Below are positions 7,304-34,762 of a stretch of 43,132 nt of DNA, piece after piece. Each line of letters starts with the position of its first letter. Within the stretch, counting starts at the first letter, position 1. The stretch comes from Anaerolineae bacterium (GTDB taxonomy: Bacteria > Chloroflexota > Anaerolineae > Promineifilales > Promineifilaceae), in assembly GCA_028277515.1 (NCBI GenBank), contig JANQGC010000328.1, forward strand, positions 1 to 43,132. The letters are read 5' to 3'. Both the position numbers and the translations under genes were made by a program. Below the pieces are notes generated by a model. That model made no database searches. It was not told the DNA's origin and worked only from the letters and a program-made list of their open reading frames with translations.

Positions 7304-7304
7304 A

Positions 7305-9938: not shown

Positions 9939-10916
9939 ATGGGGATGGAAAATTTTTCTTCAGAATTCCAAACGCCTGAACAGTATATCATTGACATCAC
10001 CTACATCATTTGGGAAGAGGGTGATGTGGGACGTATCCGAGAGTGGTACGCACCAGACTGTCCGGTTCGATCACCGCATCGTGTATACAATACAGTGCAA
10101 GATGTAATCGACGAAACCTTGGAAAGTATGCATGTTTTTTCCAGCCGGCGTCCGTATGCTGATGATGTGATCATCGGCGACAAACCCAGCGGCTTTTACT
10201 CCTCTCATCGCGTGCGTTCAGTGGGGTTGCACACAGGCGATGGCGCAATAGGACCTGCCACCGGTCGTACTTACCAGGGGTTAGGTATTGCCGACTGCCT
10301 CTGCCTCGATAACCGGATTGTGGAGGAGTGGAAGCTGCGTGACCACGCTTCCTTTATTCGCCAGCTAGGACTAGACCCGATTGAATACGGTCATTCCTTG
10401 GGAGCCAAGAATCCGGAAGTGTATGCTGTTGGCAATGAAGCCATGCGCCGGCGCTGGACGAACGATAATGGCTTGACCATCATCGGGGATACGGCCGTCG
10501 CCAACAACATCATTGATACCTATGACGCTCTGTGGAATGGAAAACACCTGAACGTTCTGTCTGAACAATATGTGCGGTCAATCCGCTTCGAAGGACCGGG
10601 TGGTCATCTCAGCTACGGCCGTGCGTCTGCCGGTAATTTACTCTCAAGCATCTTGGCTTCTCTGCCAGACGGCAATTTTGAACCTCATCATCTCATCATC
10701 CGACATCGGCCAGATCGTGCTGTGGCTGTAGCCCTGCGCTGGTCTTACTGTGGTACCCACAGCGGCATTGGGCGGTATGGATCTCCGACCGGCTGCCCGC
10801 TTGCCCTGTTGGGCATCTCACATTTTGAGCTGCACGATGGCTTGATTGCCAATGAGTGGTTAGTGCTGGATGAAACAGCGGTCTACGCTCAGATAGCTGC
10901 AAATCAAAACAATTAA
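9939..10916 (+). CDS. Two-domain SnoaL-like (NTF2-fold) protein, subfamily A, copy 1
   Basis: A 325-residue tandem of two SnoaL-like domains (about 10-150 and 185-325). The ATG at 9939 is chosen because AAGGAG precedes it and the two following paralogues start at the same place (MGMENFS); the GTG at 9897 would overlap the previous gene. Domain 1 has GPATGR (about 105-110) and EEWKLRDHA (from about 129); domain 2 has RYGSPTG and NEWLVLDETA. The P-x-T-G loop and the late E-W-x-x-x-D match the ester-cyclase/SnoaL family, where Asp/His pairs do acid-base chemistry. No signal peptide is seen, so it is cytoplasmic. A catalytic role on the imported substrate is inferred; the reaction is unknown. Confidence 0.8.
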   Translation: MGMENFSSEFQTPEQYIIDITYIIWEEGDVGRIREWYAPDCPVRSPHRVYNTVQDVIDETLESMHVFSSRRPYADDVIIGDKPSGFYSSHRVRSVGLHTGDGAIGPATGRTYQGLGIADCLCLDNRIVEEWKLRDHASFIRQLGLDPIEYGHSLGAKNPEVYAVGNEAMRRRWTNDNGLTIIGDTAVANNIIDTYDALWNGKHLNVLSEQYVRSIRFEGPGGHLSYGRASAGNLLSSILASLPDGNFEPHHLIIRHRPDRAVAVALRWSYCGTHSGIGRYGSPTGCPLALLGISHFELHDGLIANEWLVLDETAVYAQIAANQNN

Positions 10917-10929
10917 AAAGGAAAATCCT

Positions 10930-11907
10930 ATGGGCATGGAAAATTTCTCCGCAGAGTTCCAAACACCTGAGCAATACATCATCGACATCACATATAAAAT
11001 ATGGGAGAAACGAGGTGTTGCGAGAATTAACGATTGGTATGCGGCCGACACTCCGGTGCGGACTCCGCATGGTGTCACAAACAGAATCGAATCGGTGATC
11101 TCGCACACGCTGGAATCGATGGCCGAATTCCACGATCAGGAAGCTTTGGCTGAAGATGTCATCATCGGTGACAAGGATAGCGGTTTTTACTCTTCGCACC
11201 GGGTTCGTTCGCAAGCCACACACATGGCTGATGGTTATTATGGACCAGCAACGAACCGTTATGTGAGTACGCTCACGATTGCTGACTGCCTCTGCCGAGA
11301 CAACAAAGTCGTTGGGGAATGGCTTCTTGGCGATCACGCCGGCATTGTACAACATATGGGGCTGGACCCGGAAGCATTTGGCCGACGATTGGGCCGGGAA
11401 AACCCCACCGCTTATACAATGGGCAACGAGGCCATGAGAAATCGCTGGTCTGACCCGCATGGTTTAACAATCGTTGGTGACCGCACAATTGCTAACCGCA
11501 TAATCGACATCTTTGACGCGATTTGGAATGATAAAAATCTTTCCGTGATGGATGAGCAATATGATCGGGCGCTGCGCTTTGAGGGGCCGGCCAATCATAT
11601 CAGTTTCGGCCGCGCTCATGCAGGAAACTGGCTATTTAACGTCTTGGCTGCGATTCCGGACGGCTTTTTTGAACCCCATCATATTATCGTTCGCCAACAA
11701 GAAGCCAGACCTATACGCGTGGCCATACGCTGGTCTTACTGCGGATCACATAGTGGGAACGGTCGCTATGGCACAGCAACAGGATTACCGGTCACACTTC
11801 TGGCTATCAGCCAAATGGAATTACGAGATGGGTTAATTGTGAACGAATGGTTGGTGTTCGACGAAACGGCCATCTATGCCCAATTAGCGGCATATCAATC
11901 AACATAA
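10930..11907 (+). CDS. Two-domain SnoaL-like protein, subfamily A, copy 2
   Basis: 325 residues, the same length and layout as its two neighbours, and 13 bp after copy 1; clearly a tandem duplicate. Domain 1 shows IADCLCRDNKVVGEWLLGDHA and the loop YYGPATNR, with Asn in place of the Gly of P-x-T-G. Domain 2 keeps RYGTATGLPVTLLAIS and NEWLVFDETAIYAQ. AAGGAAAAT precedes the ATG. The retained overall fold with altered active-site loops suggests the copies handle different steps or stereoisomers, or form mixed oligomers; this is inference. Confidence 0.8.
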   Translation: MGMENFSAEFQTPEQYIIDITYKIWEKRGVARINDWYAADTPVRTPHGVTNRIESVISHTLESMAEFHDQEALAEDVIIGDKDSGFYSSHRVRSQATHMADGYYGPATNRYVSTLTIADCLCRDNKVVGEWLLGDHAGIVQHMGLDPEAFGRRLGRENPTAYTMGNEAMRNRWSDPHGLTIVGDRTIANRIIDIFDAIWNDKNLSVMDEQYDRALRFEGPANHISFGRAHAGNWLFNVLAAIPDGFFEPHHIIVRQQEARPIRVAIRWSYCGSHSGNGRYGTATGLPVTLLAISQMELRDGLIVNEWLVFDETAIYAQLAAYQST

Positions 11908-11931
11908 ACGAATAATAAGGTAAAAAATCTC

Positions 11932-12909
11932 ATGGGTATGCAAAACTTTTCTCCGGAATTTGAAACGCCGGAACAATATATTGTCGATATTACTTACCAG
12001 ATTTGGGAGGAGCGTGGCATTGGCCGCATTCATGACTGGTATGCTACCAATTGCCCCGTCCACACACCACATGGTGTCGAAAACAGGGTCGAAGATGTGA
12101 TTGACCACACGTTATCTACAATGCATCTCTTCCCCAATCGGGATATTCTGGCTGAGGACGTTATCATTGGGGATAAAGCTGATGGTTTTCTATCCTCTCA
12201 CCGGGCTAGATCTCTAGGGATACATAAGGGAGACGGCTACTATGGTCCGGCTACCAATCGCCAAATTGTCATGCTAGCGATTGCAGATTGCCTTTGTCAA
12301 AATAACCAGGTCGTATCTGAATGGCTTTTGATCGATCAAGCTCGCAATGTTCTTCAGTTGGGGCTTGACCCGGTGCGCTTCGGCAAGGAAAAGGGGACAC
12401 TCAACCCCGAACCTTACACGGTGGGCAATGAAGCCATGCGACAACGCTGGGCGGACCCTCAAGGCTATTCAGTTGTCGGTGATGAGGCCATTGCCCAACG
12501 CATCGCTGATACTTATGCGCTGATATGGAATGAAAAAAAGCTGAACGTGATCGATGAACGGTACGATCGCGCCGTGCGCCTTGAAGGACCTGTCGGCTAT
12601 CTTTGTTATGGTCGTGCCCAAACAGGCAATTTGTTCTCCAGCATCATCGCCTCGATTCCCGACGGCCGTTTTGAACCCCATCACCTTATCGTTCGCCAAC
12701 AACCAGAGCGATCCGTTCGGGTCGCTTTGCGCTGGTCATATTGCGGCACGCATAGTGGCGTTGGCCGTTACGGTCAGCCATTAGGTTCACCCGTGGCCAT
12801 ATTGGGCAACTCCCATTTTGAACTGCGTGATGGTTTGATTGCCAATGAATGGATTATGATTGATGAGATAGCTATCTATGCCCAAATGGCAGCATACCAA
12901 CTGGCATAA
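11932..12909 (+). CDS. Two-domain SnoaL-like protein, subfamily A, copy 3
   Basis: The third 325-residue tandem copy, 24 bp after copy 2, starting MGMQNFSPEFETPEQYIVDI. Domain 1 carries YYGPATNRQ and SEWLLIDQA; domain 2 carries RYGQPLGSPVAILGNSHFEL and NEWIMIDEIAIYAQ. The P-x-T-G loop is PATN in domain 1 and PLG in domain 2, so both loops have drifted from the consensus. It is followed by a decayed 0.3-kb region and then a longer SnoaL-like relative. Confidence 0.8.
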   Translation: MGMQNFSPEFETPEQYIVDITYQIWEERGIGRIHDWYATNCPVHTPHGVENRVEDVIDHTLSTMHLFPNRDILAEDVIIGDKADGFLSSHRARSLGIHKGDGYYGPATNRQIVMLAIADCLCQNNQVVSEWLLIDQARNVLQLGLDPVRFGKEKGTLNPEPYTVGNEAMRQRWADPQGYSVVGDEAIAQRIADTYALIWNEKKLNVIDERYDRAVRLEGPVGYLCYGRAQTGNLFSSIIASIPDGRFEPHHLIVRQQPERSVRVALRWSYCGTHSGVGRYGQPLGSPVAILGNSHFELRDGLIANEWIMIDEIAIYAQMAAYQLA

Positions 12910-12930
12910 AGGGATTTAACAGGAGTTATC

Positions 12931-13218: not shown

Positions 13219-13235
13219 AAAAGTGAGGTGGAAAT

Positions 13236-14402
13236 ATGGCTTCTTCCAAGTCTAAGAAAGAAAACAAAAACAATACGATAGAAATCGCCGATAAATCCAT
13301 CATGTCTTCCAGGCATGAGGTGCGGAAAATGCCGACCGATTTTTCTATCTCGTTAGCCGCTAAAGGTGGAACGGATCAATTGTTGGTCGATCCGGGCAGC
13401 AAGCATTTACAACCGATGCGCGGCTTTGAAGAAACTTACGTGGACATTATTGATTATATTGTGCGCATCACCCACCGTATATGGGAAGAAAAGGATATCG
13501 GCTACATATACGATACTTACAAGCATAATTCCAGGGTTGTAGATGGCTATGGATTGCAATACGGCCGTGACAAGATCGTCGCCGATACCGTTCACACAAT
13601 CAATGCTTTTCCCGACATCCGCCTTTATGCAGACGAGATTGTTTGGGCTGGAGATGAGGAAGTTGGATTCCATACTTCCCACCGTACGGTTATCAAAGGA
13701 ACCAACACCGGGATCAGCCGCTACGGTCCACCCACCGGCCGCAAAATAGAATTGTGGTGTATAGCCAACTGTGTGGCCCTTGAAAATGAAATCTTTGAAG
13801 AGTGGGTCTTATATGATAACGCTGATTTGGTCCGGCAATTGGGCTTTAATTTGCGAGAGATGGCGCGGGAAATAGGAAACCAACGTGTGGACGATCAGGT
13901 TCATGTGCCCTCTTTCGAGCCGGAACGCCTGCCAGGACAAGGAAAACCAAAATATCTCACTTATGATTATGCGTCCGGCAAAACATTTGACCTGGTCGAT
14001 TTTCTTTCAGCAACCTACCACAACATCTGGAATAGGCGCATGCTTGGAACGATTCATAAATCTCATGCACCTAATGTTCATACCTTGAGTTCTAACGGCC
14101 GTCGATTTTATGGCCAGAACCAGTTGCAATCTTTTTTTCTTTCTCTCCTGGCAGCTTTTCCTGACCTTACCTTCCAAATCGATGATTTGTATTGGATGGG
14201 CAATGATAGTGACGGTTATCTCACGGCAATGCGCTGGAGTATTGTGGGAAATCATCGTGGTTGGGGAATTTATGGCCACCCAACCGGCCGGCCGGTTCAC
14301 ATTTGGGGGATCACGCAACATCGCATAAAAAATGGTTTGATAACGGATGAGTGGATGTTATTCAACGAGTTTGCACTCATGCAGCAAATATTCCACGATT
14401 GA
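13236..14402 (+). CDS. Two-domain SnoaL-like protein with N-terminal extension, subfamily A-long
   Basis: A 388-residue relative of the three preceding proteins with about 65 extra N-terminal residues rich in Lys, Ser and Asn (MASSKSKKENKNNT...), probably disordered. Domain 1 contains RYGPPTGRKIELW and EEWVLYDNADLVRQLGF; domain 2 contains IYGHPTGRPVHIWGITQH and DEWMLFNEFALMQQ. In domain 2 the usual late Asp is Asn (FNEFA), which may alter its activity. GTGAGGTGG precedes the ATG. Its closest relative in the window is the protein at 24180 in another transporter block, so each block has one long form. Confidence 0.8.
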   Translation: MASSKSKKENKNNTIEIADKSIMSSRHEVRKMPTDFSISLAAKGGTDQLLVDPGSKHLQPMRGFEETYVDIIDYIVRITHRIWEEKDIGYIYDTYKHNSRVVDGYGLQYGRDKIVADTVHTINAFPDIRLYADEIVWAGDEEVGFHTSHRTVIKGTNTGISRYGPPTGRKIELWCIANCVALENEIFEEWVLYDNADLVRQLGFNLREMAREIGNQRVDDQVHVPSFEPERLPGQGKPKYLTYDYASGKTFDLVDFLSATYHNIWNRRMLGTIHKSHAPNVHTLSSNGRRFYGQNQLQSFFLSLLAAFPDLTFQIDDLYWMGNDSDGYLTAMRWSIVGNHRGWGIYGHPTGRPVHIWGITQHRIKNGLITDEWMLFNEFALMQQIFHD

Positions 14403-14436
14403 ACGAATCATTCCTAAACAGTTTGGAGCATGACGA

Positions 14437-16179
14437 TTGAGTAGAGCTGAGGGAAAGGTACAACTAACGGCCGTAGAGCAATTTCGCAGTGCTCGCCTGC
14501 ATGCCAAAATCGATCAAATTAAAGCTGTCTTAACCGGTAAATCGGCCGATTTGTTGTCATATGAAGAGGTGCGCGAAAAAGTCCGCGCCATCGAGACAAA
14601 CAAACGTGAACTAAAAGAGATTCCCCTGGACGCCATTGTGGGCAGCGTCGGCCGTTACAAAGATTTCACGCGCCACTTTTTCCCCCTGGTGGAAGAGGAT
14701 GAACATCGGTGGGCGCGCGTCTATATGCTCACCGGGGATATGGAGGGATTGCCCCCGATAGAGACCTATCAAATTGGCGACGTTTATTTTGTACGAGATG
14801 GAAATCATCGCGTATCCGTGGCGCGCGACCTGGAAGCGTCTCATATTGAAGCCCATGTGACCCAGGTAGAGACACCGGTCCCCTTGGAGCCTGACCTGCA
14901 ACCGGGTGATTTGATCATAAAAGAACGGTATGCGCGATTCCTGGAACGGACTCAGCTTAATAAAGTTTACCCTAACCTGGATTTGAGCATGAGCGTTGCC
15001 GGGAATTACCGCGTATTGGAACAACAAATAGCCGTTCACCAACATTGGGTCAATGAACATAAAGGGGAAAATATTACTTTTTCCGAAGCGGCCATACGTT
15101 GGTACAAACATATCTATTGGCCGGTTGTCCAGATCATTCGCGAGCATGGAATTTTGCGTGATTTTCCCACCCGTACAGAAACAGATCTATATGTGTGGAT
15201 TGACAAACATCGTCATGAGTTAGCTAAAGAGCTAGGCTGGTCGGTAAGTGCTGAAGCGGCCGTGCTTGACCTTGCCAATAGACAAATCCAAAATCCTGTA
15301 AAATCAATGCAGCGCTTGGGCCAGAAACTGCGTAACACGATCACACCCGCGGCGCTTGAAGCCGGCCCTCTGGTTGGAGAATGGCGCGAATCCTGGTTAT
15401 CCACATATCGTGCCAACCGATTATTTACCCATATTTTGGTGGCTATCGACGGGAAGGAAGCCGGCTGGCAGGCCCTTCAGCAAGGGCTGCGCGTTGCTCA
15501 GCAGGAAGAAGGTAAAATTTTCGGACTGCATGTCTCAAAAACATCAAAAAAGAAATCCGATCAAAAACTGCGGCAAATGCAAAATGAATTTAACCGCCGC
15601 TGCGAGGCAGAGCATATTGCTGGTGAATTTACGACAGCCATGGGATCAACAACTGACACAATCTGTCATCGTGCTCGCTGGGCAGACCTGGTCGTTGTTA
15701 GCCTCAGCCACCCCCCAGGCCCCACGCCTGTTGACAGGCTTAATTCCCAGTTCGCCCAACTGCTGCGCCGCTGCCCGCGCCCGGTATTGGCCGTGCCGCG
15801 CGTTTCTGCTGGTTTGCAACAATTACTGCTAGCATACGATGGTAGCCCCAAAGCAAATGAGGGCCTGTTTGTGGCGCGCTATATGGTTGAACAATGGGAC
15901 GCTTCTTTACTGGTTGTGACCGTAAAAGAAAAGAATGGTGGGGGTAAGAAAACCGCCGCCCGCGCTCGGACATATCTTGAAGAGCATAAGGTCCAGGGAG
16001 AATTTTTAATAGCTAAGGGAAAACCATCTCATATTATTCTCCAAACAGCCCGTGACATCTCTTGTGATCTGATCATTATGGGGGGTTATGGCAGCAATCC
16101 TTTATCAGAAATTGTAACGGGGAGTGTCGTGGATGAGGTTTTACGCACTAGGAATCGGCCTGTATTGATCTGCCGTTAG
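14437..16179 (+). CDS. ParB-like domain fused to two universal stress protein domains
   Basis: 580 residues. TTG at 14437 is the only possible start (an in-frame stop lies just upstream) and has GGAG eight bases before it. Residues about 50-140 resemble a ParB/sulfiredoxin-type fold (IPLDAIVGSVGRYKDFT, YFVRDGNHRVSVARDLEA). A helical middle follows. Two UspA domains end the protein: about 330-450 (ILVAIDGKEAGWQAL), which lacks a clear nucleotide loop, and about 460-580, with LLAYDGSPKANEG and the full G-2x-G-9x-GS ATP-binding motif in GGYGSNPLSEIVTGS. The combination suggests an ATP-sensing regulator or nucleotide-binding switch linked to this catabolic operon; its target is unknown. Confidence 0.78.
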   Translation: MSRAEGKVQLTAVEQFRSARLHAKIDQIKAVLTGKSADLLSYEEVREKVRAIETNKRELKEIPLDAIVGSVGRYKDFTRHFFPLVEEDEHRWARVYMLTGDMEGLPPIETYQIGDVYFVRDGNHRVSVARDLEASHIEAHVTQVETPVPLEPDLQPGDLIIKERYARFLERTQLNKVYPNLDLSMSVAGNYRVLEQQIAVHQHWVNEHKGENITFSEAAIRWYKHIYWPVVQIIREHGILRDFPTRTETDLYVWIDKHRHELAKELGWSVSAEAAVLDLANRQIQNPVKSMQRLGQKLRNTITPAALEAGPLVGEWRESWLSTYRANRLFTHILVAIDGKEAGWQALQQGLRVAQQEEGKIFGLHVSKTSKKKSDQKLRQMQNEFNRRCEAEHIAGEFTTAMGSTTDTICHRARWADLVVVSLSHPPGPTPVDRLNSQFAQLLRRCPRPVLAVPRVSAGLQQLLLAYDGSPKANEGLFVARYMVEQWDASLLVVTVKEKNGGGKKTAARARTYLEEHKVQGEFLIAKGKPSHIILQTARDISCDLIIMGGYGSNPLSEIVTGSVVDEVLRTRNRPVLICR

Positions 16180-16203: not shown

Positions 16204-16258
16204 TTGACAGGAAATCGATTTCCATGTATTCTTATAAAAGATTCGGAAATCGATTTCC
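16204..16258 (+). promoter_or_regulatory. Promoter and two operators of LacI regulator 2
   Basis: TTGACA (16204-16209), a 17-bp spacer and TATTCT (16227-16232) form a likely promoter. Two identical perfect palindromes GGAAATCGATTTCC lie at 16210-16223, inside the spacer, and at 16245-16258, just downstream, with centres 35 bp apart. The second ends one base before the ribosome site. The layout implies tight autorepression by the LacI protein encoded immediately downstream. Confidence 0.8.
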
Positions 16259-17365: not shown

Positions 17366-18367
17366 ATGGTCGATTTTCAAAAAAATAAATCATTAATCCT
17401 GAGTTTCTACGATCAGCTTGATGCGGCCGCGGGAAATGAAATCAACGAAGTACTGCGGCAATATACGGCCGAAGACTATTACTGGCGCGGTATGCATCCT
17501 TTCTACGAACAGCATGGGGCAGAAGCGGTCGCCAACGTCTTTTGGAAACCTTTTCACCACTCATTTGCCCCCATTCAGCGACGCCAGGATGTCTTTATGG
17601 CCGGGTTAAACCAGGTTGATAACTTTGAGAGCGAATGGGTTTGCTCAATGGGACACTTGTTGGGTTTGTTTGATGAGGACTGGCTGGGTATTCCCTCAAC
17701 CGGCAAGATGGGATTTCTGCGCTATGTGGAGTTCAATCGAATTACCAACGGCAAAATCAGCGAAACCGCCCTGTTCTGCGATGTTATTAGCGTTATGCTT
17801 CAGGCTGGACAAAATCCCCTGCCGGAACAAACAGGCGCTTTCTTCATCACGCCCGGTCCACGCACACATGATGGCCTTCTGTTCGGCAAGCAGGACCCGG
17901 CTGATACAAAAAAAACCCGGAATTTGATCAATCGCATGATCGATGACCTGGTAACCGCCGGCATGCACTCAGAACAGGGAGAGCTGGCCGAGACGTGGCA
18001 CCAGGACATGATCTGGTTCGGCCCGGCCGGGATCGGAGCAGCGTACACCATCAATCGCTATGAGGAACAGCATCAGGGACCATTCAGAGAGGGCCTGGAC
18101 GATATTAAATTCCATGGCCATGTCTGCTTCTTGACAGAAGGTCATTATGGTGGCTTCTTCGGCTGGTCAAATCTCTCCATGAAACCCAATGGCGGCTTCA
18201 TGGGGCTGCCTGCATCCGACAAGCAAGCTGAAATGCGAGTTGTCGATATCTATCGTCGAGAAGGAAACAAATTGGCTGAAAATTGGATATTTATCGACCT
18301 GCTGCATTATCTGTCGATGCAAGGCCTGGATGTGCTGGGGCGGATGAGGCGGATTAACCGCCGTTAG
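17366..18367 (+). CDS. Two-domain SnoaL-like protein, subfamily B, copy 1
   Basis: 333 residues. Each half is SnoaL-like: domain 1 (about 5-155) has EDYYWRGMHPF, DEDWLGIPSTGKMGFLRYVE and an Ile/Leu-rich tail; domain 2 (about 190-330) has MIWFGPAGIGAAYTINRYEE, GFMGLPASDKQAEMRVVD and ENWIFIDLLHYLSMQGLDVL. The P-x-T-G loop is intact in domain 1 (PSTG) but PASD in domain 2. GPAGIGA and the R/Q-EEQHQGPFR segment define this subfamily; the protein at 33746 is its partner in block 4. It is under LacI 2 control and divided from the transporter genes by 174 bp containing another control region. Confidence 0.78.
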   Translation: MVDFQKNKSLILSFYDQLDAAAGNEINEVLRQYTAEDYYWRGMHPFYEQHGAEAVANVFWKPFHHSFAPIQRRQDVFMAGLNQVDNFESEWVCSMGHLLGLFDEDWLGIPSTGKMGFLRYVEFNRITNGKISETALFCDVISVMLQAGQNPLPEQTGAFFITPGPRTHDGLLFGKQDPADTKKTRNLINRMIDDLVTAGMHSEQGELAETWHQDMIWFGPAGIGAAYTINRYEEQHQGPFREGLDDIKFHGHVCFLTEGHYGGFFGWSNLSMKPNGGFMGLPASDKQAEMRVVDIYRREGNKLAENWIFIDLLHYLSMQGLDVLGRMRRINRR

Positions 18368-18479: not shown

Positions 18480-18508
18480 TTGACCTTTATCTCATACGTA
18501 TGAATGCT
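18480..18508 (+). promoter_or_regulatory. Candidate promoter with palindrome TCATACGTATGA before transporter 2
   Basis: TTGACC (18480-18485) is followed 17 bp later by a poor -10 (AATGCT). The spacer holds the perfect 12-bp palindrome TCATACGTATGA (18492-18503), whose core CATACGTATG equals the core of the LacI 1 operators at 3215 and 36196. The promoter-spacer geometry is the same as at 3211. It may be a LacI 1 site of lower affinity or a site for another factor. Confidence 0.45.
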
Positions 18509-18541
18509 TTTTGCTTTTACCTATATGCGAAGGAGAAGACA

Positions 18542-20914: not shown

Positions 20915-20915
20915 T

Positions 20916-26933: not shown

Positions 26934-27029
26934 TTAAACCATACCTTAAATTGGATTGAATGGCCTTGTCCGGTAGTTTAAGACCTTGGCCCTTCAATCC
27001 AACCACCTTGTTTTATAAGGGGGTTATTG

Positions 27030-27893
27030 ATGAAACGAAAGACTTTCATTCAATTCACAGCACCAAGCGTCATTGCTATGGGTACGCTCATGGTATTCCC
27101 ATTGCTGATTGCCATTTGGCTTGGCATGCATTTTATGACGTTCCGCAATATTGATTCACCAGAATTTGTGGGATTCGCAAACTACATAGAGGTTCTGTCC
27201 GATCCGAGATTTTGGCAAGCCGTACGTTTTACTTTAGTTTATATATTGATCGCTGTTCCCCTCATCATAATCAATGGTTTTATTATTGCCATGCTTTTGG
27301 ATCAGGTGACACGAAAATTTCGTGGCATTTTCATATCTGCTCTCTTACTGCCAATGATTATCGTTCCTGTCGTGGGAACGTTGATGTTTAAACAGCTTTT
27401 TGTGCCGAGCGGCATTGTTTCCTGGTTCTTTCGAGATATTATTGGGCAACGCTTTGTCTTCACCGAGCTTTCAGTGAAATTTCTCGTCATTGTTAACGCA
27501 GTTTGGACCGGTACCCCATTCACGTTCATAGTCATGTACGCTGGTTTATTGACCATATCAGAAGAGCAAGTAGACGCCTCTTTAATTGATGGCGCTAACA
27601 GGCTGCAGCAGATTAGATACATCGTCATACCTCATCTCCGTTCCGTCCTGACCTTTCTCGGCCTCATATTGATTATGGACGCCTACCGAGTCTTCGATGG
27701 TGTATTTGTTCTTACAGAGATGAATCCAATTTTCAATGCGGATACCGTCATGTTATATATATTTCGCACATCAATGAGCGTGCGGCGGCTTGGAAAAGGA
27801 AATGCCATGGCTATCTTAACGGTTGTCATGATTCTGATTATCTTAGTCCCCTTGTTAATCCGTACTTACCGCGAACAAGTTGAGGAGCGTTAA
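27030..27893 (+). CDS. Sugar ABC transporter permease 3a (MalF-like)
   Basis: 287 residues from the ATG at 27030 (AAGGGGG before it), paralogous over its length to the permease at 20051. It starts MKRKTFIQFTAPSVIAMGTL and has six membrane segments. The EAA loop is DASLIDGANRLQQIRYI then VIPHLRS, and MDAYRVFDGVFVLTEMNPIF corresponds to the same region of the other protein. It partners the permease that begins one base downstream. Confidence 0.92.
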   Translation: MKRKTFIQFTAPSVIAMGTLMVFPLLIAIWLGMHFMTFRNIDSPEFVGFANYIEVLSDPRFWQAVRFTLVYILIAVPLIIINGFIIAMLLDQVTRKFRGIFISALLLPMIIVPVVGTLMFKQLFVPSGIVSWFFRDIIGQRFVFTELSVKFLVIVNAVWTGTPFTFIVMYAGLLTISEEQVDASLIDGANRLQQIRYIVIPHLRSVLTFLGLILIMDAYRVFDGVFVLTEMNPIFNADTVMLYIFRTSMSVRRLGKGNAMAILTVVMILIILVPLLIRTYREQVEER

Positions 27894-27894
27894 T

Positions 27895-28899
27895 ATGGCG
27901 AAAATACGTAACCCCATTGGATTGACGTTCATTTATATTGGACTAATAACCTATGTGATCATAAGTGTGTCACCTGTGTTATGGACCGTACTGCAATCCT
28001 TAAAAACACCAAGGCAGGCAAATTCCCGAACACCTTTGTTTATCTTTGATGTCACGTTCGATAATTACACGGACCTATGGCTAAACGAAGTCCCTGCAAA
28101 TCCAGGGGCGCTGGTTTTTTCACTCCTGGCGATTATTCTGGTGCTGGTTCTTGTCGCTATTTTCGCCAATCGAATCCCGATTTCCAATTCCATTCTGTAT
28201 GGTGGCGTTGTTGTTGCCGCATTCCTTACAATGTGGATGGTTCCACAATTTGTGAATACGGCCGAGTTCTATGATTACTTTCTCAACACCGTCATTGTCG
28301 TCCTGGGAACGGTGACAATCTCAATGACCATAGGCTGTCTGGCAGGGTATGCTTTGGCACGCTATTCAGGAATTTCCGGCGTACTCCTTCTAGTTGCAGC
28401 CCTTGGTTTTCGTTCCTTACCCAGTCTGGCTTTCGTGCTGCCCTACTTCTTTCTTGGGCAAAGGACCGGCCTATTCGACTCCTATGCGCTGTTGATTATC
28501 ACAATGGTGGCTATAAACCAACCATTTACGATATGGATGCTGCGCAGCTTTTTCATGGATATACCAAAGGAAATCGAGGAATCCGCCATGGTGGATGGGG
28601 CCAGCCGCTTGACAGCATTTCGCAAAGTCATTATTCCGATCATGTGGCCCGGCATCGTCGCCACTGGTTTGTTTTCAATTCTTCTTGCCTACAGCGAATT
28701 TCTATTGGTGAGAATTCTGACCCAATCAAACTGGACGCTATCAGTCGCTATCGCCCAGTTCACAGGTGGTGAAGACCCTGGACACCTGACCCTTGCCGCG
28801 GCGGCCGGCGTGTCAGCCACGCTCCCCATCGTGTTAGTCATTTTAGTATTTCAAAAACAACTGTTGGCTGGCCTGACCGCCGGCGCGGTGAAGGGATAG
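27895..28899 (+). CDS. Sugar ABC transporter permease 3b, extended MalG-like
   Basis: 334 residues; the ATG at 27895 follows GAGGAG. It shares the extra hydrophobic region seen at 20916 (here GALVFSLLAIILVLVLVAIF and SILYGGVVVAAFLTMWMV). The EAA loop is EESAMVDGASRLTAFRKVI then IPIMWPG; the C-terminus is KQLLAGLTAGAVKG. No ATP-binding subunit follows; the next genes are SnoaL-like proteins. Confidence 0.9.
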   Translation: MAKIRNPIGLTFIYIGLITYVIISVSPVLWTVLQSLKTPRQANSRTPLFIFDVTFDNYTDLWLNEVPANPGALVFSLLAIILVLVLVAIFANRIPISNSILYGGVVVAAFLTMWMVPQFVNTAEFYDYFLNTVIVVLGTVTISMTIGCLAGYALARYSGISGVLLLVAALGFRSLPSLAFVLPYFFLGQRTGLFDSYALLIITMVAINQPFTIWMLRSFFMDIPKEIEESAMVDGASRLTAFRKVIIPIMWPGIVATGLFSILLAYSEFLLVRILTQSNWTLSVAIAQFTGGEDPGHLTLAAAAGVSATLPIVLVILVFQKQLLAGLTAGAVKG

Positions 28900-28909: not shown

Positions 28910-29962
28910 ATGAGAGCAATATCCGACACGGAAAAGAACCAAAAAAACAAAGCAGTTGTCTGGAAATTCTGGCAAAAAATGAACCACGTCCAACCCAATG
29001 AAATCTCAAATGTGGTTCAAGAAGCGATGTATGAGGATATAAACTGGAACGGTCCGCAGCCCATCAATAACATCCGGGGTACAGACGCCCTAGTTGAGGA
29101 TTTCTGGCAGCCGTTATTACGGTCATTCCCCGATCTAAAGCGCAAAGCTGACGTCTTTATGGGAGGTGTAGGCAATGAGGAGTGGGTGTCCGGTCTCGGC
29201 TACCTCACCGGCACATTCACCCAGGATTGGTTAGATATTCCGGCAACTGGCGCAAAGGCTAACATTCATTTTGGACAATTCTATCTCATGAGGGAAGAGC
29301 AAATTGCTGAAAGTTATCTGATTTTGGATTTGTTGGGGGTCATGAGGCAAGCCGGCTTCCAGGTTCTCCCCCCAGCTCTCGGGGAAGAAGGCGGTAAGAT
29401 TCCTGGTCCCCCCAGGGGAGATGGTGTGCTTTTGACCGAGCAGGATAAACTGGAAACATTGAAGACCCGTCAACTATGTGGGGCAATGGGCCAGGGTATG
29501 GAACGATATGTTCGAAGTCGAGACGGTGGGGATTTGCGCAGTATGGAGCAGCAACTTTACTGGCATCCAAACATGCATTGGTATGGTCCGACCGGGATTG
29601 GCTCCTGCTTCAGTTTACAAGAATTCGAAGATTTCCATCAGCGTCCCTGGTTGCAAGGCTTTGGAGATCGCGGTGTTCATCAAACTGGGGGTGGACGCGA
29701 AATCGAATTCCTGTGTGAGGGAAATTTTGGTGGCGGCGGCATTTGGGATACCGCTTTTTCTATCCATCGCGGTGAGTATCTGGGGATTCCGGCAACTGGA
29801 AATTTGATGACGATGCGTGACTTTGACTGGTATCGGCGAGATGGTAATTACCTGGCCCAAAACTGGGTTCCCATCGATATAGTTGATCTCCTCATGCAGA
29901 TGGGAGTTGATTTATTCGACAGATTGCGCCATCAGATAGAACAGCGGAAACGGAATGCCTAA
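28910..29962 (+). CDS. Two-domain SnoaL-like protein, subfamily C, copy 2
   Basis: 350 residues, 10 bp after the permease gene, so almost certainly cotranscribed; the ribosome site is poor and translation may be coupled. Domain 1 has NQKNKAVVWKFWQKMNHVQ and DWLDIPATGAKANIHFGQFY; domain 2 has MHWYGPTGIGSCFSLQEFED, YLGIPATGNLMTMRDFDWYR and QNWVPIDIVDLLMQMGVDLF. Both P-A-T-G loops are intact, but the late Glu is Gln (AQNWVPID). A longer insert between domains (LLTEQDKLETLKTRQL) marks this subgroup with the next two proteins. Confidence 0.8.
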   Translation: MRAISDTEKNQKNKAVVWKFWQKMNHVQPNEISNVVQEAMYEDINWNGPQPINNIRGTDALVEDFWQPLLRSFPDLKRKADVFMGGVGNEEWVSGLGYLTGTFTQDWLDIPATGAKANIHFGQFYLMREEQIAESYLILDLLGVMRQAGFQVLPPALGEEGGKIPGPPRGDGVLLTEQDKLETLKTRQLCGAMGQGMERYVRSRDGGDLRSMEQQLYWHPNMHWYGPTGIGSCFSLQEFEDFHQRPWLQGFGDRGVHQTGGGREIEFLCEGNFGGGGIWDTAFSIHRGEYLGIPATGNLMTMRDFDWYRRDGNYLAQNWVPIDIVDLLMQMGVDLFDRLRHQIEQRKRNA

Positions 29963-30133: not shown

Positions 30134-31192
30134 ATGTCTAAAAACAATCAAAAAAATAAAGAAATTGTATGGGATTTTTGGCAAAAACTAAACCACGTTG
30201 GGCTTGACAACGTGCCTGATGTAATCAATGCTGCGATGCATAAAGACGTAGACTGGAATGGCTCGGAGCCAATTAACCAGATCGTGGGCGCGGATGCCGT
30301 TTTTACAGATTATATGCGGCCTTTGATGACCTCGTTTCCTGATCTGAAATGGCGACCATACGTTTTTATCGGCGGGGCCGACAACGAAGGGGATGAATGG
30401 GTGTCCGGGTGCGGATATCTTACCGGGACCTTTGTCGAAGATTGGTTAGGCATCCCAGCCACGAATGATAAAACCAATATCGGTTTTGGCCAGTTTTATG
30501 TGCTACGAGAAGGCAAAATCGCAGAGAGCTACTTAATACTGGATATTCTTGGGGTTATGCGGCAAGCAGGATTTCAAATCCTACCTCCCGCCCGCGGAGC
30601 AGAAGGAGGTAAAATCCCAGGTCCCGCCGCCGGGGATGGCATTCTCTTGACGGAGCAAGACGAGCTGGAATCAAGAAAGAGCAAGCAGTTGACCATGATC
30701 GCGATGGATGGTTTGGGACGGTACGATCGCAGCCGGGATGGCGGTGACATGAGTCGCATGGAGCACGAACATTACTGGCATCCGCAGATGCACTGGTATG
30801 GCTATACAGGGATCGGGGCCACTTTTAGCAAAGAAGAATTTGAGGATTTCCACCAGCGACCCTGGTTGCACGGATTTGGAGATCGCCATGTTTCCATTCC
30901 GGTTGGTCGCCATATGGGGTTCGTTGGGGAAGGGCTTTATTCAGCTGGGGGTATTTGGGATGTAGCCTTTTCCATAAATCATGGTGATTATCTTGGCTAT
31001 CCGGCCACTGGGAAAATGATGACGATACGTGATTTCGATTGGTGGAAGCGTGAGGGGGATTTGCTAATAGAGAACTGGGTTCCCATTGATTTAATCGATA
31101 TTTTTAAACAAATGGGTGTCGATCTGTTCGACATATTGCATCATCAAGTTGAACAGCGCAAAAAAGGCATTCAGTGGTTTGATCAATCATAA
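30134..31192 (+). CDS. Two-domain SnoaL-like protein, subfamily C, copy 3
   Basis: 352 residues; GTGAGGAAAAA precedes the ATG. Starts NNQKNKEIVWDFWQKLNHVG. Domain 1 reads DWLGIPATNDKTNIGFGQFY, with the Gly of P-x-T-G replaced by Asn-Asp; domain 2 reads MHWYGYTGIGATFSKEEFED, GYPATGKMMTIRDFDW and ENWVPIDLIDIFKQMGVDLF, intact. The interdomain insert is LLTEQDELESRKSKQL. It is separated from the previous gene by the inverted repeat at 30012-30073 and may have its own promoter. The altered first loop suggests that the N-terminal domain is structural or has changed specificity. Confidence 0.8.
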   Translation: MSKNNQKNKEIVWDFWQKLNHVGLDNVPDVINAAMHKDVDWNGSEPINQIVGADAVFTDYMRPLMTSFPDLKWRPYVFIGGADNEGDEWVSGCGYLTGTFVEDWLGIPATNDKTNIGFGQFYVLREGKIAESYLILDILGVMRQAGFQILPPARGAEGGKIPGPAAGDGILLTEQDELESRKSKQLTMIAMDGLGRYDRSRDGGDMSRMEHEHYWHPQMHWYGYTGIGATFSKEEFEDFHQRPWLHGFGDRHVSIPVGRHMGFVGEGLYSAGGIWDVAFSINHGDYLGYPATGKMMTIRDFDWWKREGDLLIENWVPIDLIDIFKQMGVDLFDILHHQVEQRKKGIQWFDQS

Positions 31193-31279
31193 TCGTTCCT
31201 CAGGTGGGAACCAGGTATTTTCCAATACCAAACGAAATCGAGAAACGCAGCTCTTATAACACTTAGCAAAGGAAATGAG

Positions 31280-32371
31280 ATGTCAAATAACACCAATCAG
31301 AAAAACAAAGAATTTGTCTGGGATTTTTGGCAAAAAATGAATCATGTTGGAATCGACAATGTTCCCGATATTATCCGTGCCGCTATGCATGAAGATGTAA
31401 ACTGGAATGGTTCTGCACCTATAAATCAGATAGAGGGAGTCGATGCGCTCATCACGGATTTCTGGCAGCCTTTATTGACCTCATTTCCCGATCTTAAAAG
31501 AAAAGCCTACATATTTATGGGTGGAACGGACAAAGGTGATTCAATCTACGGTACCGATCAAGTTGAAGAGTGGGTATCAGGTGTAGGGTATCTCACCGGC
31601 ACATTTGTTCAGGATTGGCTCGGTATCCCAGCGACCGGAGAGAAGACCAATATCCATTTTGGCCAGTTTTACCTTCTCCGTGAGGGAAAAATAGCCGAAA
31701 GCTATGTCATGTATGACATTTTGGCCGTTATGAGACAAGCCGGTTTTCAGGTACTGCCTCCTGCACTTGGAGGAGAAGGAGGCAAGGTTCCTGGTCCAGC
31801 GGCCGGCGACGGGGTCCTCTTAACAGAACAGAACAGTCTGGAATCGCGTAAAAGCTTGCAGCTCGTCGAAGCAATGGGTAGGGGTTTGGAACGCTATGTG
31901 CGCAGCCGGGATGGGGGCGATATGCGAAGTATGGAGCAATGGCATTATTGGCATCCCCAAATGCATTGGTATGGTCCGTCTGGAATAGGTGCTTGCTTGA
32001 GCCTGGAAGAGTTTGCAGATTTTCACCAAAGACCCTGGCTTCATGGCTTTGGAGACCGTAATCTTAGTCACAATGGGGGTGGACGAGCCTTAGGGTTCAT
32101 CGGCGAAGGGCAATATGTTTGTGGCGGCATATGGGATAGAGTATTTTCTAGAAATCATGGTGAGTATGCTGGAAATCCAGCCACCGGAAAATTAATGACA
32201 ATTCGTGATTTTGACTGGTGGAAGCGTGAGGATGAATTTTTAATTGAAAACTGGGTACCGATTGATTTGATCGATATTTTTAAACAACTAGGTGTCGATC
32301 TTTTTGACAGGCTGCGTCATCAAATCGAACGGCGCAATCAAGGTATTCATTGGTACGATTTATCCCAATAA
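31280..32371 (+). CDS. Two-domain SnoaL-like protein, subfamily C, copy 4
   Basis: 363 residues; AAAGGAAATGAG before the ATG. Very similar to the protein at 30134 in start (NQKNKEFVWDFWQKMNHVGI) and end (RNQGIHWYDLSQ compared with KKGIQWFDQS), so these are the youngest duplicates. Domain 1 has an insert of about 10 residues (DSIYGTDQVE) and an intact DWLGIPATGEKTNIHFGQFY; domain 2 has MHWYGPSGIGACLSLEEFAD, NPATGKLMTIRDFDWW and ENWVPIDLIDIFKQLGVDLF. The linker LLTEQNSLESRKSLQLVEAM matches the remnant found at 33649. Confidence 0.82.
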   Translation: MSNNTNQKNKEFVWDFWQKMNHVGIDNVPDIIRAAMHEDVNWNGSAPINQIEGVDALITDFWQPLLTSFPDLKRKAYIFMGGTDKGDSIYGTDQVEEWVSGVGYLTGTFVQDWLGIPATGEKTNIHFGQFYLLREGKIAESYVMYDILAVMRQAGFQVLPPALGGEGGKVPGPAAGDGVLLTEQNSLESRKSLQLVEAMGRGLERYVRSRDGGDMRSMEQWHYWHPQMHWYGPSGIGACLSLEEFADFHQRPWLHGFGDRNLSHNGGGRALGFIGEGQYVCGGIWDRVFSRNHGEYAGNPATGKLMTIRDFDWWKREDEFLIENWVPIDLIDIFKQLGVDLFDRLRHQIERRNQGIHWYDLSQ

Positions 32372-32406
32372 TTCCTTGATTATATCTGCTAGAAAGGGGT
32401 TGCCCT

Positions 32407-33636
32407 ATGTCAATCGAACTCAGTCAAAATACCGCTGTGGTAACGAAATCGTTTTCGCGGTATCGGTTTGTTATCGCAGGTCTTCTTCTGGCTGCGCATT
32501 TCACGTTAGGTATAAATTTTTTCTCAATTTCGCCACTGTTACCGCTGGTGATTGAGGATTATGACATAACACGTGCCACAGCTAGTTTACTCATTGCCGT
32601 ACCAACTCTAGCTAAAGCCTTCTTTGGCTTGCCGGCAAGTGTTATTATCAATCGTTTTGGGTTAAAGCCTGTATTCTCCGTAAGCTGGTTCATGATTGCA
32701 ACATTGTCCCTTTCCGCACTGGCTCCCAATTTCGGCAGCCTGCTTCTCTTGCGGCTCCTTTATGGGATAGGGGCCGGCTTGATGATGCCAGCTATTGGTC
32801 CATTGGTGATGCAGTGGTTCCGGCCGAAAGAAATGGCGATTATGAACAGCGCGGGTTTGATTGTGATGAGTGCAGGTATTGCTTTTTCGGTGGCCATTGC
32901 CGCCCCGCTGTCAACGGCCGTTTCCTGGCAAGTTGTCCTAACCATATTTGGTCTTATCACTTTAATAAGCGCAGTGGCCTGGAGTTTCTTGGGTAGAGTT
33001 AAACAAAAGAAACAGGGTTCAACATCCCGGTTTACCTTCAAAGACATGTGGCAAGTTTTGAGCAACCGGACCATATTCCTATTGGTCGTTTCGGATGCAT
33101 TGGTTTTCATTCTCTATGCAGCTCATACGAGCTGGCTGCCCACTTTCTACAATGAATTTCGGGGTATGTCCCTTGTACAAGCCGGTAATTTAACAGGTCT
33201 GCTGCCCTTTGTTGGCATGTTTGCCGTACTTCTTGGCGGCTACCTGGCCCTGCGTGTGAAGTCAAAACGCTTATTCTTTATCATCCCCGGCATTTTGGTG
33301 GGTCTGGGAGGCTTTGGTGCCTTCATGTTTGAACAGACTGCGTTGATTGCACTGTCAGTCATGGTGCTTGGCATAGGAACATGGATCTACCAACCTATGC
33401 TGCTCACTCTGCCCATGCAGCTGCCCTGGATGACGGAAGAAAAGATCTCTGTGGTCTGGGGATCATCATTGACCATAGCCGGCCTGGGTATGTTTATCTC
33501 CCCAATTGTGGTTGGGGCATCTCGGGATACACTTGGCACTTTTGTACCTGGATTCTTTATTTGGGCCATGCTGGCCTGGGCTTTGTTAATCGCCGGATTT
33601 CTCCTGCCAGAGCAAGACGTCTCAGGCGAAGCATAG
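32407..33636 (+). CDS. MFS transporter (anion/nitrate/sugar-acid-like), 12 membrane segments
   Basis: 409 residues with about twelve hydrophobic segments, beginning FVIAGLLLAAHFTLGINFFS; cytosolic loop 2-3 (NRFGLKPVFSVSW) and LLRLLYGIGAGLMMPAIGPL are typical of the major facilitator superfamily of the nitrate/cyanate/oligosaccharide-phosphate type. GAAAGGGG precedes the ATG at 32407 (a GTG at 32437 is an alternative). It lies 35 bp after a SnoaL-like gene, among subfamily B and C genes, and may export a product or take up a smaller acid. An exact LacI 3 operator covers codons 13-17. Confidence 0.85.
   Translation: MSIELSQNTAVVTKSFSRYRFVIAGLLLAAHFTLGINFFSISPLLPLVIEDYDITRATASLLIAVPTLAKAFFGLPASVIINRFGLKPVFSVSWFMIATLSLSALAPNFGSLLLLRLLYGIGAGLMMPAIGPLVMQWFRPKEMAIMNSAGLIVMSAGIAFSVAIAAPLSTAVSWQVVLTIFGLITLISAVAWSFLGRVKQKKQGSTSRFTFKDMWQVLSNRTIFLLVVSDALVFILYAAHTSWLPTFYNEFRGMSLVQAGNLTGLLPFVGMFAVLLGGYLALRVKSKRLFFIIPGILVGLGGFGAFMFEQTALIALSVMVLGIGTWIYQPMLLTLPMQLPWMTEEKISVVWGSSLTIAGLGMFISPIVVGASRDTLGTFVPGFFIWAMLAWALLIAGFLLPEQDVSGEA
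32444..32457. promoter_or_regulatory. LacI 3 operator inside the MFS coding region
   Basis: CGAAATCGTTTTCG is the exact reverse complement of the 14-bp LacI 3 operator at 23060 and 25342, located 37 bp into the MFS reading frame. LacI-family repressors can act inside genes as roadblocks or as one end of a DNA loop. Confidence 0.6.
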
Positions 33637-33648
33637 AGTACTAAGAAT

Positions 33649-33735
33649 TTACTGACAGAGCAAGATGGACTTGAATCACGAAAAAAAGCCCAACTCATAG
33701 CAGCGATGGGCAAGGATTTTTTTACACTCTTTTGA
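33649..33735 (+). pseudogene. Remnant of a subfamily C SnoaL-like gene
   Basis: In the 109-bp gap after the MFS gene, one frame reads LLTEQDGLESRKKAQLIAAM, then GKDFFTLF and a TGA. This matches the interdomain linker of the proteins at 30134 (LLTEQDELESRKSKQL) and 31280 (LLTEQNSLESRKSLQLVEAM). Only about 28 codons survive, with no start and neither domain. It records deletion or recombination of a further SnoaL-like copy. Its TGA overlaps the GAGG ribosome site of the next gene. Confidence 0.75.
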
Positions 33736-33745
33736 GGATAAAAAA

Positions 33746-34762
33746 TTGAGTAAATTTCAAAAAGCCAAAACGGTTGTTCTCAGTTATTTTGATGCTCTTG
33801 AAAAAGCCTCTCCGCAAACAGTTGCCAATGTTTTAAGAGAATTTACGGCAGAAAACTACCACTGGCGCAGCGTGTATCCATTCCGGCAATTGCATGGCGC
33901 TGACGATGTGGCCCAAACCTTTTGGACACCATTGCTGCATGCACTCACCCGCATGCAGCGCCGGCAAGATATTTTCATCGCCGGTAAAAATGAATTCCGA
34001 GATGAGCAATGGGTCATGAGTATGGGCAACTTCATGGGCCTATTTGATAATGATTGGTTAGGCATTGGCCACACGCGCAAACTGGCAAATCTTCGCTACG
34101 CGGAGTTTAATCGGGTTGAAAACGGGAAAATAGTTGAAACTGGGCTGTTCATTGATATCATCGGCCTCATGATTCAGGCTGGCGCTTACCCTCTGCCGCC
34201 ATCAACCGGTGTGTATTTCAATTATCCGGGACCGCGCACGCATGATGGCTTGCTGCTTGAGGATGCGGATGAAAAAGAAAGCGTCATCACTCTAGACTTG
34301 GTGAAGGAAATGATAGGCGATTTGGTCACCCTTAACGAGAGTGGCTCTATGACCTGCCCACCGGAAGTTCTGGAAAGAACCTGGTCCGGCGACATGCTTT
34401 GGTACGGTCCGGCCGGCGTCGGGGCTACATACACCATACCCCGCTATCAAGAACAGCATCAATTACCCTTCCGCAATAACCTGGCGGATAAAAAATTTAT
34501 CGCTCACACCACACGTTTCGCCGAAGGCAAATATGCTTGTTTTTTCGGTTGGCCTAACTTATCCAATTCCCCACTCGGGGGTTGGTTGGGGTTGCCTGGT
34601 GGAACCAAAAATGTGGAAATGCAAGTGGTTGATGTTTACCGTCGTGATGGGGATAAACTAGTTGAGAATTGGGTATTTATTGATATCCCTTATTGGCTGA
34701 AACAACAGGGAGTAGACATTCTAGAACGCACTCAAAACATAGTAAATCCTATCAACAAGTAA
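33746..34762 (+). CDS. Two-domain SnoaL-like protein, subfamily B, copy 2
   Basis: 338 residues from TTG at 33746, with TGAGGA seven bases upstream. It aligns end to end with the protein at 17366: ENYHWRSVYPFRQLHGADDV, QRRQDIFIAGKNEF, MLWYGPAGVGATYTIPRYQE and ENWVFIDIPYWLKQQGVDIL. In domain 1 the P-x-T-G loop has become DWLGIGHTRKLANLRYAEFN, and in domain 2 GLPGGTKNVEMQ, so both loops have lost the consensus although the scaffold is kept. It closes the second transporter block, whereas its counterpart opens the first one. Confidence 0.78.
   Translation: MSKFQKAKTVVLSYFDALEKASPQTVANVLREFTAENYHWRSVYPFRQLHGADDVAQTFWTPLLHALTRMQRRQDIFIAGKNEFRDEQWVMSMGNFMGLFDNDWLGIGHTRKLANLRYAEFNRVENGKIVETGLFIDIIGLMIQAGAYPLPPSTGVYFNYPGPRTHDGLLLEDADEKESVITLDLVKEMIGDLVTLNESGSMTCPPEVLERTWSGDMLWYGPAGVGATYTIPRYQEQHQLPFRNNLADKKFIAHTTRFAEGKYACFFGWPNLSNSPLGGWLGLPGGTKNVEMQVVDVYRRDGDKLVENWVFIDIPYWLKQQGVDILERTQNIVNPINK

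Follow-up and report, generated by a model that had tools for sequence, protein, structure and literature searches.

We analysed a window of 43,132 nucleotides, positions 1 to 43,132 of contig JANQGC010000328.1 from an Anaerolineae bacterium (phylum Chloroflexota), in which eleven genes for two-domain SnoaL-like proteins (S1 to S11) and one SnoaL remnant lie among three binding-protein-dependent importers. The genes are arranged in three units, each with its own LacI-type regulator: unit 1 comprises the regulator at 3421, importer 1 and S1–S4; unit 2 the regulator at 16204, S5, importer 2 and S6; and unit 3 the regulator at 23132, S7, importer 3, S8–S10, an MFS transporter and S11. On the 3′ side of unit 3 stand an alpha/beta-hydrolase-like gene and then genes for an HpaI-family aldolase, a HisD-fold dehydrogenase and a short-chain dehydrogenase (SDR). 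Related gene sets recur in Pseudomonadota, Deinococcota, Bacillota and other Chloroflexota. The SnoaL genes (each an open reading frame (ORF) matching PF07366), the regulators and the transporters are located as follows.

3421–4434, + strand: LacI-type regulator 1
4713–6191, + strand: importer 1 solute-binding protein, start uncertain
6431–7303 and 7296–8141, + strand: importer 1 permeases, both above the PF00528 cut-off
9939–10916, + strand: S1, group I (short)
10930–11907, + strand: S2, group I (short)
11932–12909, + strand: S3, group I (short)
13236–14402, + strand: S4, group I (long)
14437–16179, + strand: protein with two Usp domains; a relative lies beside group I genes in Chloroflexota locus L160
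16204–17283, + strand: LacI-type regulator 2
17366–18367, + strand: S5, group II, S5/S11 subfamily
18500–19981, + strand: importer 2 solute-binding protein
20051–20914 and 20847–21917, + strand: importer 2 permeases, just above and below the PF00528 cut-off, respectively
21969–22943, + strand: S6, group II
23132–24130, + strand: LacI-type regulator 3
24180–25283, + strand: S7, group I (long), structure modelled
25491–26933, + strand: importer 3 solute-binding protein
27027–27893 and 27880–28899, + strand: importer 3 permeases, below and above the PF00528 cut-off, respectively
28910–29962, + strand: S8, group II
30134–31192, + strand: S9, group II
31280–32371, + strand: S10, group II, structure modelled
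32407–33636, + strand: MFS transporter, which recurs between a permease and a group II gene
33649–33714, + strand: SnoaL remnant of 22 codons, recognised by sequence similarity
33746–34762, + strand: S11, group II, S5/S11 subfamily, TTG start

All eleven SnoaL genes are intact, with ORFs present at the starts given by an earlier first-pass annotation; they encode proteins of 324–388 aa, and a purine-rich stretch lies upstream of each. Their assignment to the SnoaL family was confirmed by PF07366, whose curated cut-off is exceeded by all 11 proteins, and their two-domain build by two separately matched stretches in 10 of them. In S2, which is 61–62% identical to S1 and S3, only the C half was separately matched. 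The remnant is real but short, with 22 in-frame codons that resemble the inter-domain linker of S8–S10 (E 3e-4 for a longer match beginning at 33619). The two half-motifs previously ascribed to every gene hold in part. Strict P-x-T-G is found in both halves of only 3/11 proteins (S6, S8 and S10), and the Trp of E-W-x-x-x-D is missing from the group II N halves. Of the 22 halves, 21 retain the terminal Asp of this motif, the sole exception being an Asn in the C half of S4. We take this Asp, which closes the last strand, to be the catalytic Asp of SnoaL. Eleven such genes in 25 kb are extreme but not unique, as the group I profile matched another Chloroflexota genome (G006) 11 times, in some cases to single domains.

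Compared to the subfamilies proposed earlier (A, A-long, B and C), the main division is into two groups; the placement of the genes around three LacI-controlled importers is upheld. Group I contains S1–S4 and S7 and group II contains S5, S6 and S8–S11, with 12–21% identity across groups. Profile–profile comparison shows the two halves of each protein to be homologous (E 1e-30 in group I and 2e-16 in group II), whereas halves compared across the groups are more weakly related (E 6e-9 to 8e-11). Since halves are closer within a group than across groups, the profiles suggest that the domain duplication occurred separately in groups I and II. At E 1e-3 we found 1160 relatives of S10 and 1902 of S7; among the 120 matches listed for each, the closest proteins with a named source are mostly from Chloroflexota (including Candidatus Leptofilum, Promineifilaceae and Ardenticatenaceae), with one labelled Actinomycetota.

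Confident structure models of S7 and S10 show an NTF2-like fold in each half, with predicted local distance difference test scores (pLDDT) of 86.5 and 92.2, respectively. SnoaL-like cyclases and hydroxylases head the lists of solved folds for both models; limonene epoxide hydrolase and ketosteroid isomerase appear there too, as does LinA for S7. The SnoaL family is known above all from antibiotic biosynthesis. Unlike the single-domain cyclases and hydroxylases (SnoaL 1sjw, AclR 2gey, SnoaL2 8r2b and KstA15 8r20), the window proteins consist of two fused domains and occur in a catabolic setting. Two tandem epoxide hydrolases, Lsd19 (3rga, 4rzm) and MonBI–MonBII (9kw6, 9kw8), match the S10 model over both domains, but they superpose poorly on it (root-mean-square deviation of 15–17 Å), so their domains may be arranged differently. 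These hydrolases serve polyether synthesis and carry a catalytic acidic pair in each pocket.

Annotations such as 'SnoaL-like polyketide cyclase' or 'ester cyclase' might suggest a polyketide-type biosynthetic cluster equipped with cyclases. We set this explanation aside because no polyketide synthase gene is present among the window proteins scanned; acyl carrier proteins are likewise absent from them, the KR-domain matches are the two SDRs, and the importers, LacI regulators and aldolases point to catabolism. Polyketide synthesis can hardly be the function of this cluster.

Similar folds can be binders rather than enzymes, which is a point against assigning reactions to these proteins. The NTF2 fold serves binding proteins too, and a designed cortisol binder was among the fold matches, so that the SnoaL proteins could instead be cytosolic binding or sensing proteins for an imported ligand. 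Residue conservation argues otherwise. In addition to the terminal Asp, group I keeps S129-H130 and E170-W171-D175 in the N half and R311-W312, H318 and E350 in the C half invariant across 39 sequences, and different subfamilies usually occur together in loci with enzymes. We regard a binding or sensing role as quite unlikely. Across 34 group II sequences, D146 of the N half is among the invariant positions, as are D312, N324-W325 and D329 of the C half.

The window genes fall into six clades: S1–S3 (support 0.85), S4 (0.85), S7 (0.99), S5 with S11 (1.0), S6 (1.0) and S8–S10 (0.99). In the sampled loci, the S5/S11, S4 and S1–S3 clades mix Chloroflexota and Pseudomonadota, and the S7 and S6 clades contain Chloroflexota only. 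The trees cover selected loci, and length filters removed sequences before both the trees and the residue-conservation alignments. Among the 50 other loci with at least two two-domain SnoaL genes in the trees, 39 have all of them in different clades (21 of 25 when only plasmid and Pseudomonadota loci are counted), where 'different' depends on a cut made by our own size rule on a midpoint-rooted tree. Because the paralogues of one locus lie mostly in different clades, the trees suggest that each paralogue generally has its own step, and that some genes have in addition been copied locally.

We then compared gene neighbourhoods with control stretches. The recurrent partners of the SnoaL genes are a HpsN-like protein annotated as histidinol dehydrogenase (HisD), an SDR, a LacI regulator, a cupin with a metal site and a PcaD-like hydrolase; an aldolase of the pyruvate type, either HpaI or RraA, also recurs, as does a methyltransferase, which is MetE-II or else UROD with a corrinoid protein. 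Family labels were assigned by similarity to seeds from the window, the plasmid loci and the loci of the group II scan, and the plasmid counts include those seeds. At E 1e-40, the group I profile matched 15 of 299 genomes in an even draw of Pseudomonadota, a phylum inferred from the title of locus L076, whose genome is the centre of the draw. From these 15 genomes we compared 17 stretches of 12–20 kb with 20 control stretches of 20 kb from 14 of them.

The partners are strongly enriched in the Pseudomonadota regions: HisD is present in 14/17 regions against 0/20 controls (P = 1e-7), LacI in 15/17 against 1/20, cupin in 14/17 against 0/20, MetE-II in 11/17 against 0/20, SDR in 13/17 against 3/20, and the PcaD-like hydrolase and HpaI or RraA each in 10/17 against 0/20. 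Solute-binding proteins were found in 7/17 regions against 0/20 controls, and any binding protein or permease in 9/17 against 1/20; the difference for ABC ATPases (7/17 against 4/20) is not significant. The 17 regions include two (L115 and L119) of the draw's central genome, G001, which was itself reached through a SnoaL search; without them the counts are 13/15 for HisD, 14/15 for LacI and 13/15 for cupin.

The same pattern was observed around group I genes of Chloroflexota, where HisD is present in 8/12 regions and LacI in 7/12 (each 0/18 in controls), SDR in 8/12 against 2/18, cupin in 6/12 against 0/18, and methyltransferase (6/12), aldolase (4/12) and solute-binding protein (5/12) each against 0/18. 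These 12 regions represent 10 genomes and include one overlapping pair (L157 and L158); SnoaL loci from the group II scan led to several of them. The 18 controls come from six of the 10 genomes. Both groups are patchy in the phylum: at E 1e-40, group I was found in five and group II in three of 251 Chloroflexota genomes, both draws including a genome (G002) reached through a SnoaL locus.

Plasmids carry related sets as well, with 23 plasmid records matching group II and 74 matching group I. Their hosts include Vibrio, Roseobacters, Sinorhizobium, Deinococcus, Roseibium and haloarchaea, and related sets lie on plasmids of Deinococcus, Priestia, Pantoea, Sinorhizobium and Roseobacters. In 14 neighbourhoods hand-picked from these records for variety, and thus not a sample, we counted HisD in 11, LacI in 11, SDR in 10, solute-binding protein in 10, cupin in eight, PcaD-like hydrolase in seven, HpaI in five, amidase in four, RraA in three, MetE-II in three and C-N hydrolase in two. 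One haloarchaeal neighbourhood has an importer, five ester cyclases and MetE-II, without an annotated HisD or LacI. In the Sinorhizobium medicae cassette (L087:948-2530), HisD appears as two adjacent ORFs of 198 and 313 aa, is absent from the listed gene table and is possibly broken in this strain. A group I match elsewhere (G261:C1:1459345-1460382) has six in-frame stops and is possibly a decayed copy or a frame artefact.

The importers themselves are of the CUT1 type, with three family 1 binding proteins and six permease genes matching PF00528 (four of the six above its cut-off). No ORF in the window is labelled as an ATPase, despite three binding-protein and permease sets between 3421 and 34762; an ATPase encoded elsewhere may well be shared. 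PDB searches with two binding proteins gave only general sugar-binding proteins with low scores (best 5iai) and thus pointed to no particular ligand. The first-pass annotation had named, as grounds for doubt, surveys without a recurrent link to importers; the link does recur, but it is weaker than had been stated. A permease, or a permease and an MFS gene, lies directly upstream of the SnoaL gene in 29/79 genome loci, 7/17 Pseudomonadota regions and 8/14 plasmid loci. The 79 loci were obtained by scanning one genome per species with the group II profile and keeping the best 80 of 100 candidates; 74 have Chloroflexota-type titles, three are from Acidimicrobiia, one is from Pseudomonadales and one is labelled Candidatus Methanosuratincola. 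Solute-binding proteins occur around 29/79 of them against 0/18 controls, while the excess of any importer part (38/79 against 5/18) is not significant (P = 0.095). As the main signal, a general importer link is weakened by permeases in 4/18 Chloroflexota control stretches, compared to 5–6 of 12 group I regions. Therefore, by the Pseudomonadota and Chloroflexota control counts, importers alone mark the system less well than group I and the genes that accompany it. The earlier finding does not mention the stronger partners around group I, namely HisD, LacI, cupin, aldolase and methyltransferase. The catabolic role that it linked to regulators and importers is supported.

Further members of the system lie on both sides of the earlier interval of 9939 to 34762:

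2–931, + strand: fucose-isomerase-family protein, incomplete at the window edge and possibly a member; relatives in L058 and L160
934–2226, + strand: UROD/MtaA-family methyltransferase, probable member; relative in L160
2275–2925, + strand: corrinoid protein, probable member; a relative adjoins group I in L001
34873–36087, + strand: alpha/beta-hydrolase-like protein, no Pfam match and weak NCBIfam matches; relatives in L001 and L053
36267–37025, + strand: HpaI-family class II aldolase (PF03328), catalytic positions kept
37080–38378, + strand: HisD-fold dehydrogenase of a third motif type (PGG-EYPM)
38443–39195, + strand: SDR

By the neighbourhood counts in relatives, the HpaI, HisD and SDR genes (36267–39195) are members of the system. 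The methyltransferase end of the window (2–2925) is probably also part of it, because L160 has UROD, fucose-isomerase-family and Usp relatives beside group I and because a corrinoid protein adjoins group I in L001.

The HisD-fold dehydrogenase of the window exceeds the TIGR00069 cut-off (451 against 243.8 bits), and its closest solved relatives are the HpsN dehydrogenases for R-sulfopropanediol (R-DHPS), at 377 bits compared to 277 for HisD 4g07. In the passages of one study that treat these motifs (PMC11382572), HisD carries G-S-A-P-L and HpsN carries G-R-Y-A/S-H, of which His126 recognises the sulfonate, while Lys353 of HpsN contacts it. We collected 41 HisD ORFs, all from SnoaL-bearing stretches and including four repeats (the L076 gene again in L096 and L115, and genes of L113 and L114 again in L094 and L095); the 198-aa ORF of L087 showed no motif. 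Neither motif is present in the window protein or in any of the 40 readable sequences, which instead have x-[YF]-P-[MLI] after PGG (G-E-Y-P-M in the window). In an alignment of 40 sequences that includes the window protein, at least 97% have Glu318, His319, Asp352 and Lys353. Thus, the cassette HisD resembles HpsN in its catalytic Glu, His and Asp and in Lys353, but with G-x-[YF]-P-[MLI] in place of G-R-Y-A/S-H the sulfonate-recognising His126 is missing. As the catalytic residues are kept and neither motif is present, it is likely a functional enzyme of a third type that oxidises an alcohol to an acid by removing four electrons, and which perhaps still meets an anionic group through Lys353.

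A DHPS degradation cluster built on HpsN would account for the closest solved relative and the retained Lys353. The motif test contradicts it, with G-R-Y-A/S-H absent throughout, and no sulfolactate-lyase-type family is found among the window proteins scanned; we consider this explanation highly improbable.

The other partners also keep positions with catalytic or metal-binding roles. Conservation reaches 90% or more for D43, H46, R71, E147 and D173 of HpaI (13 sequences), H-x-H-x3-E of the cupins (25 sequences), G-x-S-x-G with Asp and His of the hydrolases (15 sequences), and H-x-C and a later C of MetE-II (18 sequences). In the Octadecabacter cassette, the hydrolase is nearest to the enol-lactonases PcaDC and PcaD (104 and 89 bits, both below cut-off), RraA is weakly like the aldolase LigK (29 bits, cut-off 304) and the cupin weakly like 3-hydroxyanthranilate dioxygenase (30 bits); the cupin and MetE-II have no solved relatives at E 1e-3. 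The pairing of RraA with a nearby PcaD-like hydrolase recalls the end of gallate and protocatechuate 4,5-cleavage, where GalC or LigK splits 4-carboxy-4-hydroxy-2-oxoadipate (CHA), but the similarity of the relatives' RraA to LigK is weak, and the annotations of the 14 plasmid neighbourhoods include no extradiol dioxygenase.

Starting from the observed gene content, its recurrence, the conserved motifs and residues and the fold, we infer the substrate's features, the order of steps and the reaction of each SnoaL enzyme from the gene set. The best explanation, which we hold to be probable though well short of certain, is that the cluster serves to import and break down a small polar compound, probably bearing methyl and hydroxymethyl groups, in which SnoaL enzymes perform separate steps. 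LacI regulators would control CUT1-type importers or the MFS carrier, and several two-domain SnoaL enzymes would each carry out one cofactor-free acid–base step (isomerisation, elimination, lactonisation or hydrolysis). The HisD-fold dehydrogenase would convert a hydroxymethyl group to a carboxylate, the SDR would oxidise a secondary alcohol, and a zinc-thiol or corrinoid methyltransferase would take off a methyl group, a step in which UROD and the corrinoid protein may replace MetE-II. Opening of a lactone or ring would fall to a hydrolase (PcaD-like in relatives) and, in relatives only, a metal cupin. In the final step, HpaI or RraA, as a class II aldolase, would release pyruvate.

Several observations weigh against this interpretation. 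In the window itself we found no cupin, MetE-II, RraA or PcaD-like hydrolase like those of the relatives; in their place stand HpaI, UROD with the corrinoid protein and another hydrolase-like protein. No importer part lies near 41/79 group II loci (some of the fetched stretches being short), 8/17 Pseudomonadota regions and 6/12 Chloroflexota group I regions. At least two SnoaL genes share a clade in 11/50 loci (among them L067, L080, L084, L090, L125, L158, L160 and L161) and in the window, and therefore some copies may be redundant. Moreover, many group II genes of Chloroflexota have different neighbours: group II loci show no excess over controls for HisD (6/79), cupin (5/79) or aldolase (3/79), and an IlvD/EDD dehydratase stands directly upstream of the group II gene in 21/79 (e.g. 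L013, L018 and L026).

This last setting also favours a plain oxidative pathway for sugars or sugar acids, in which the SnoaL proteins would be lactonases, mutarotases or epimerases acting on sugar lactones made by the SDR, followed by a dehydratase and an aldolase. The carbohydrate-like substrate proposed earlier is plausible in view of the family 1 binding proteins, the LacI regulators and the fucose-isomerase-family gene at the window edge; in addition, an SMP-30/gluconolactonase gene and an HpaI-type gene adjoin SnoaL in Ruegeria, and the window HpaI also matches 2-keto-3-deoxy-sugar-acid aldolases. On the other side, one cassette already has that separate gluconolactonase, and the IlvD-bearing loci (25/79) overlap neither the HisD loci nor the loci with solute-binding proteins. 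The PcaD-like hydrolase and CHA-type aldolase of the relatives lean towards a ring or lactone compound, and ordinary sugar-acid routes are not known to involve a PcaD-like hydrolase, a cupin or methyltransferases. A sugar pathway is rather unlikely.

Returning to a methyl- and hydroxymethyl-bearing compound, structural logic alone leads to one specific and speculative candidate, to which we give a small chance: the cassette might degrade mycosporines, mycosporine-like amino acids and gadusols, which are natural sunscreens of wide occurrence, with the SnoaL enzymes hydrolysing or rearranging their amino-substituted cyclohexenone rings. The ring core of these compounds has an O-methyl group and a tertiary carbon bearing OH and CH2OH. 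Oxidation of CH2OH to COOH by HisD, demethylation and ring opening beside the methoxy carbon would give CHA, which a LigK/GalC-type (RraA) aldolase would split into pyruvate and oxaloacetate. Cleavage of CHA to these two products is stated in PMC10512348. Amine oxidase (12/79 loci) and amino-acid racemase (12/79), present together beside SnoaL in 11/79 loci (e.g. L056, L062, L064 and L067), would process the amino-acid side groups, whose numerous variants would explain why there are so many SnoaL paralogues. One oxidase representative matches N-methyltryptophan oxidase (474 bits, cut-off 257) and one racemase representative matches an amino-acid racemase of the Asp/Glu type (212 bits, cut-off 93). 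Some of these loci also have an S9 peptidase.

A full-text literature search found no paper that describes this gene set among the matches listed, as judged by titles and the openings of abstracts, with most subscription papers and all preprints outside its coverage. We read the gene set as an undescribed catabolic pathway in which SnoaL-fold enzymes would perform several acid–base steps. If the proposed catabolic system is correct, SnoaL-fold enzymes would be core catabolic catalysts, a third group of HisD-fold dehydrogenases would be hidden under the label of histidine biosynthesis, and the genes would point to a natural compound without known breakdown genes. The set is common to several phyla, where it is now annotated only as 'ester cyclase', 'histidinol dehydrogenase' and similar. 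The binding proteins and the cultured plasmid hosts (Sinorhizobium medicae, Phaeobacter and Deinococcus) make the substrate question directly testable.

Further genes were observed in these neighbourhoods. The IlvD/EDD setting often has SDR and PhyH genes nearby, and an amino-acid permease fused to a Usp domain (~874 aa; one Pfam-scanned) lies near group II genes at L016:9039-11696 and in 14 further loci. The locus labelled Candidatus Methanosuratincola, an archaeon (L054), pairs an importer like importer 2 with a group II gene and is possibly the result of wrong binning. Within the window, an FG-GAP/UnbV (CRTAC1-like) gene at 8138–9907 overlaps the 3′ end of an importer 1 permease gene, and in Ruegeria conchae a CRTAC1-family gene lies ~9 kb from a SnoaL gene. 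Beyond the SDR, the opposite strand (39206–43130) encodes a second SDR, a DHDPS-family aldolase-like protein, an allantoinase/hydantoinase-like amidohydrolase and a piece of MmgE/PrpD, which probably form a separate catabolic unit.

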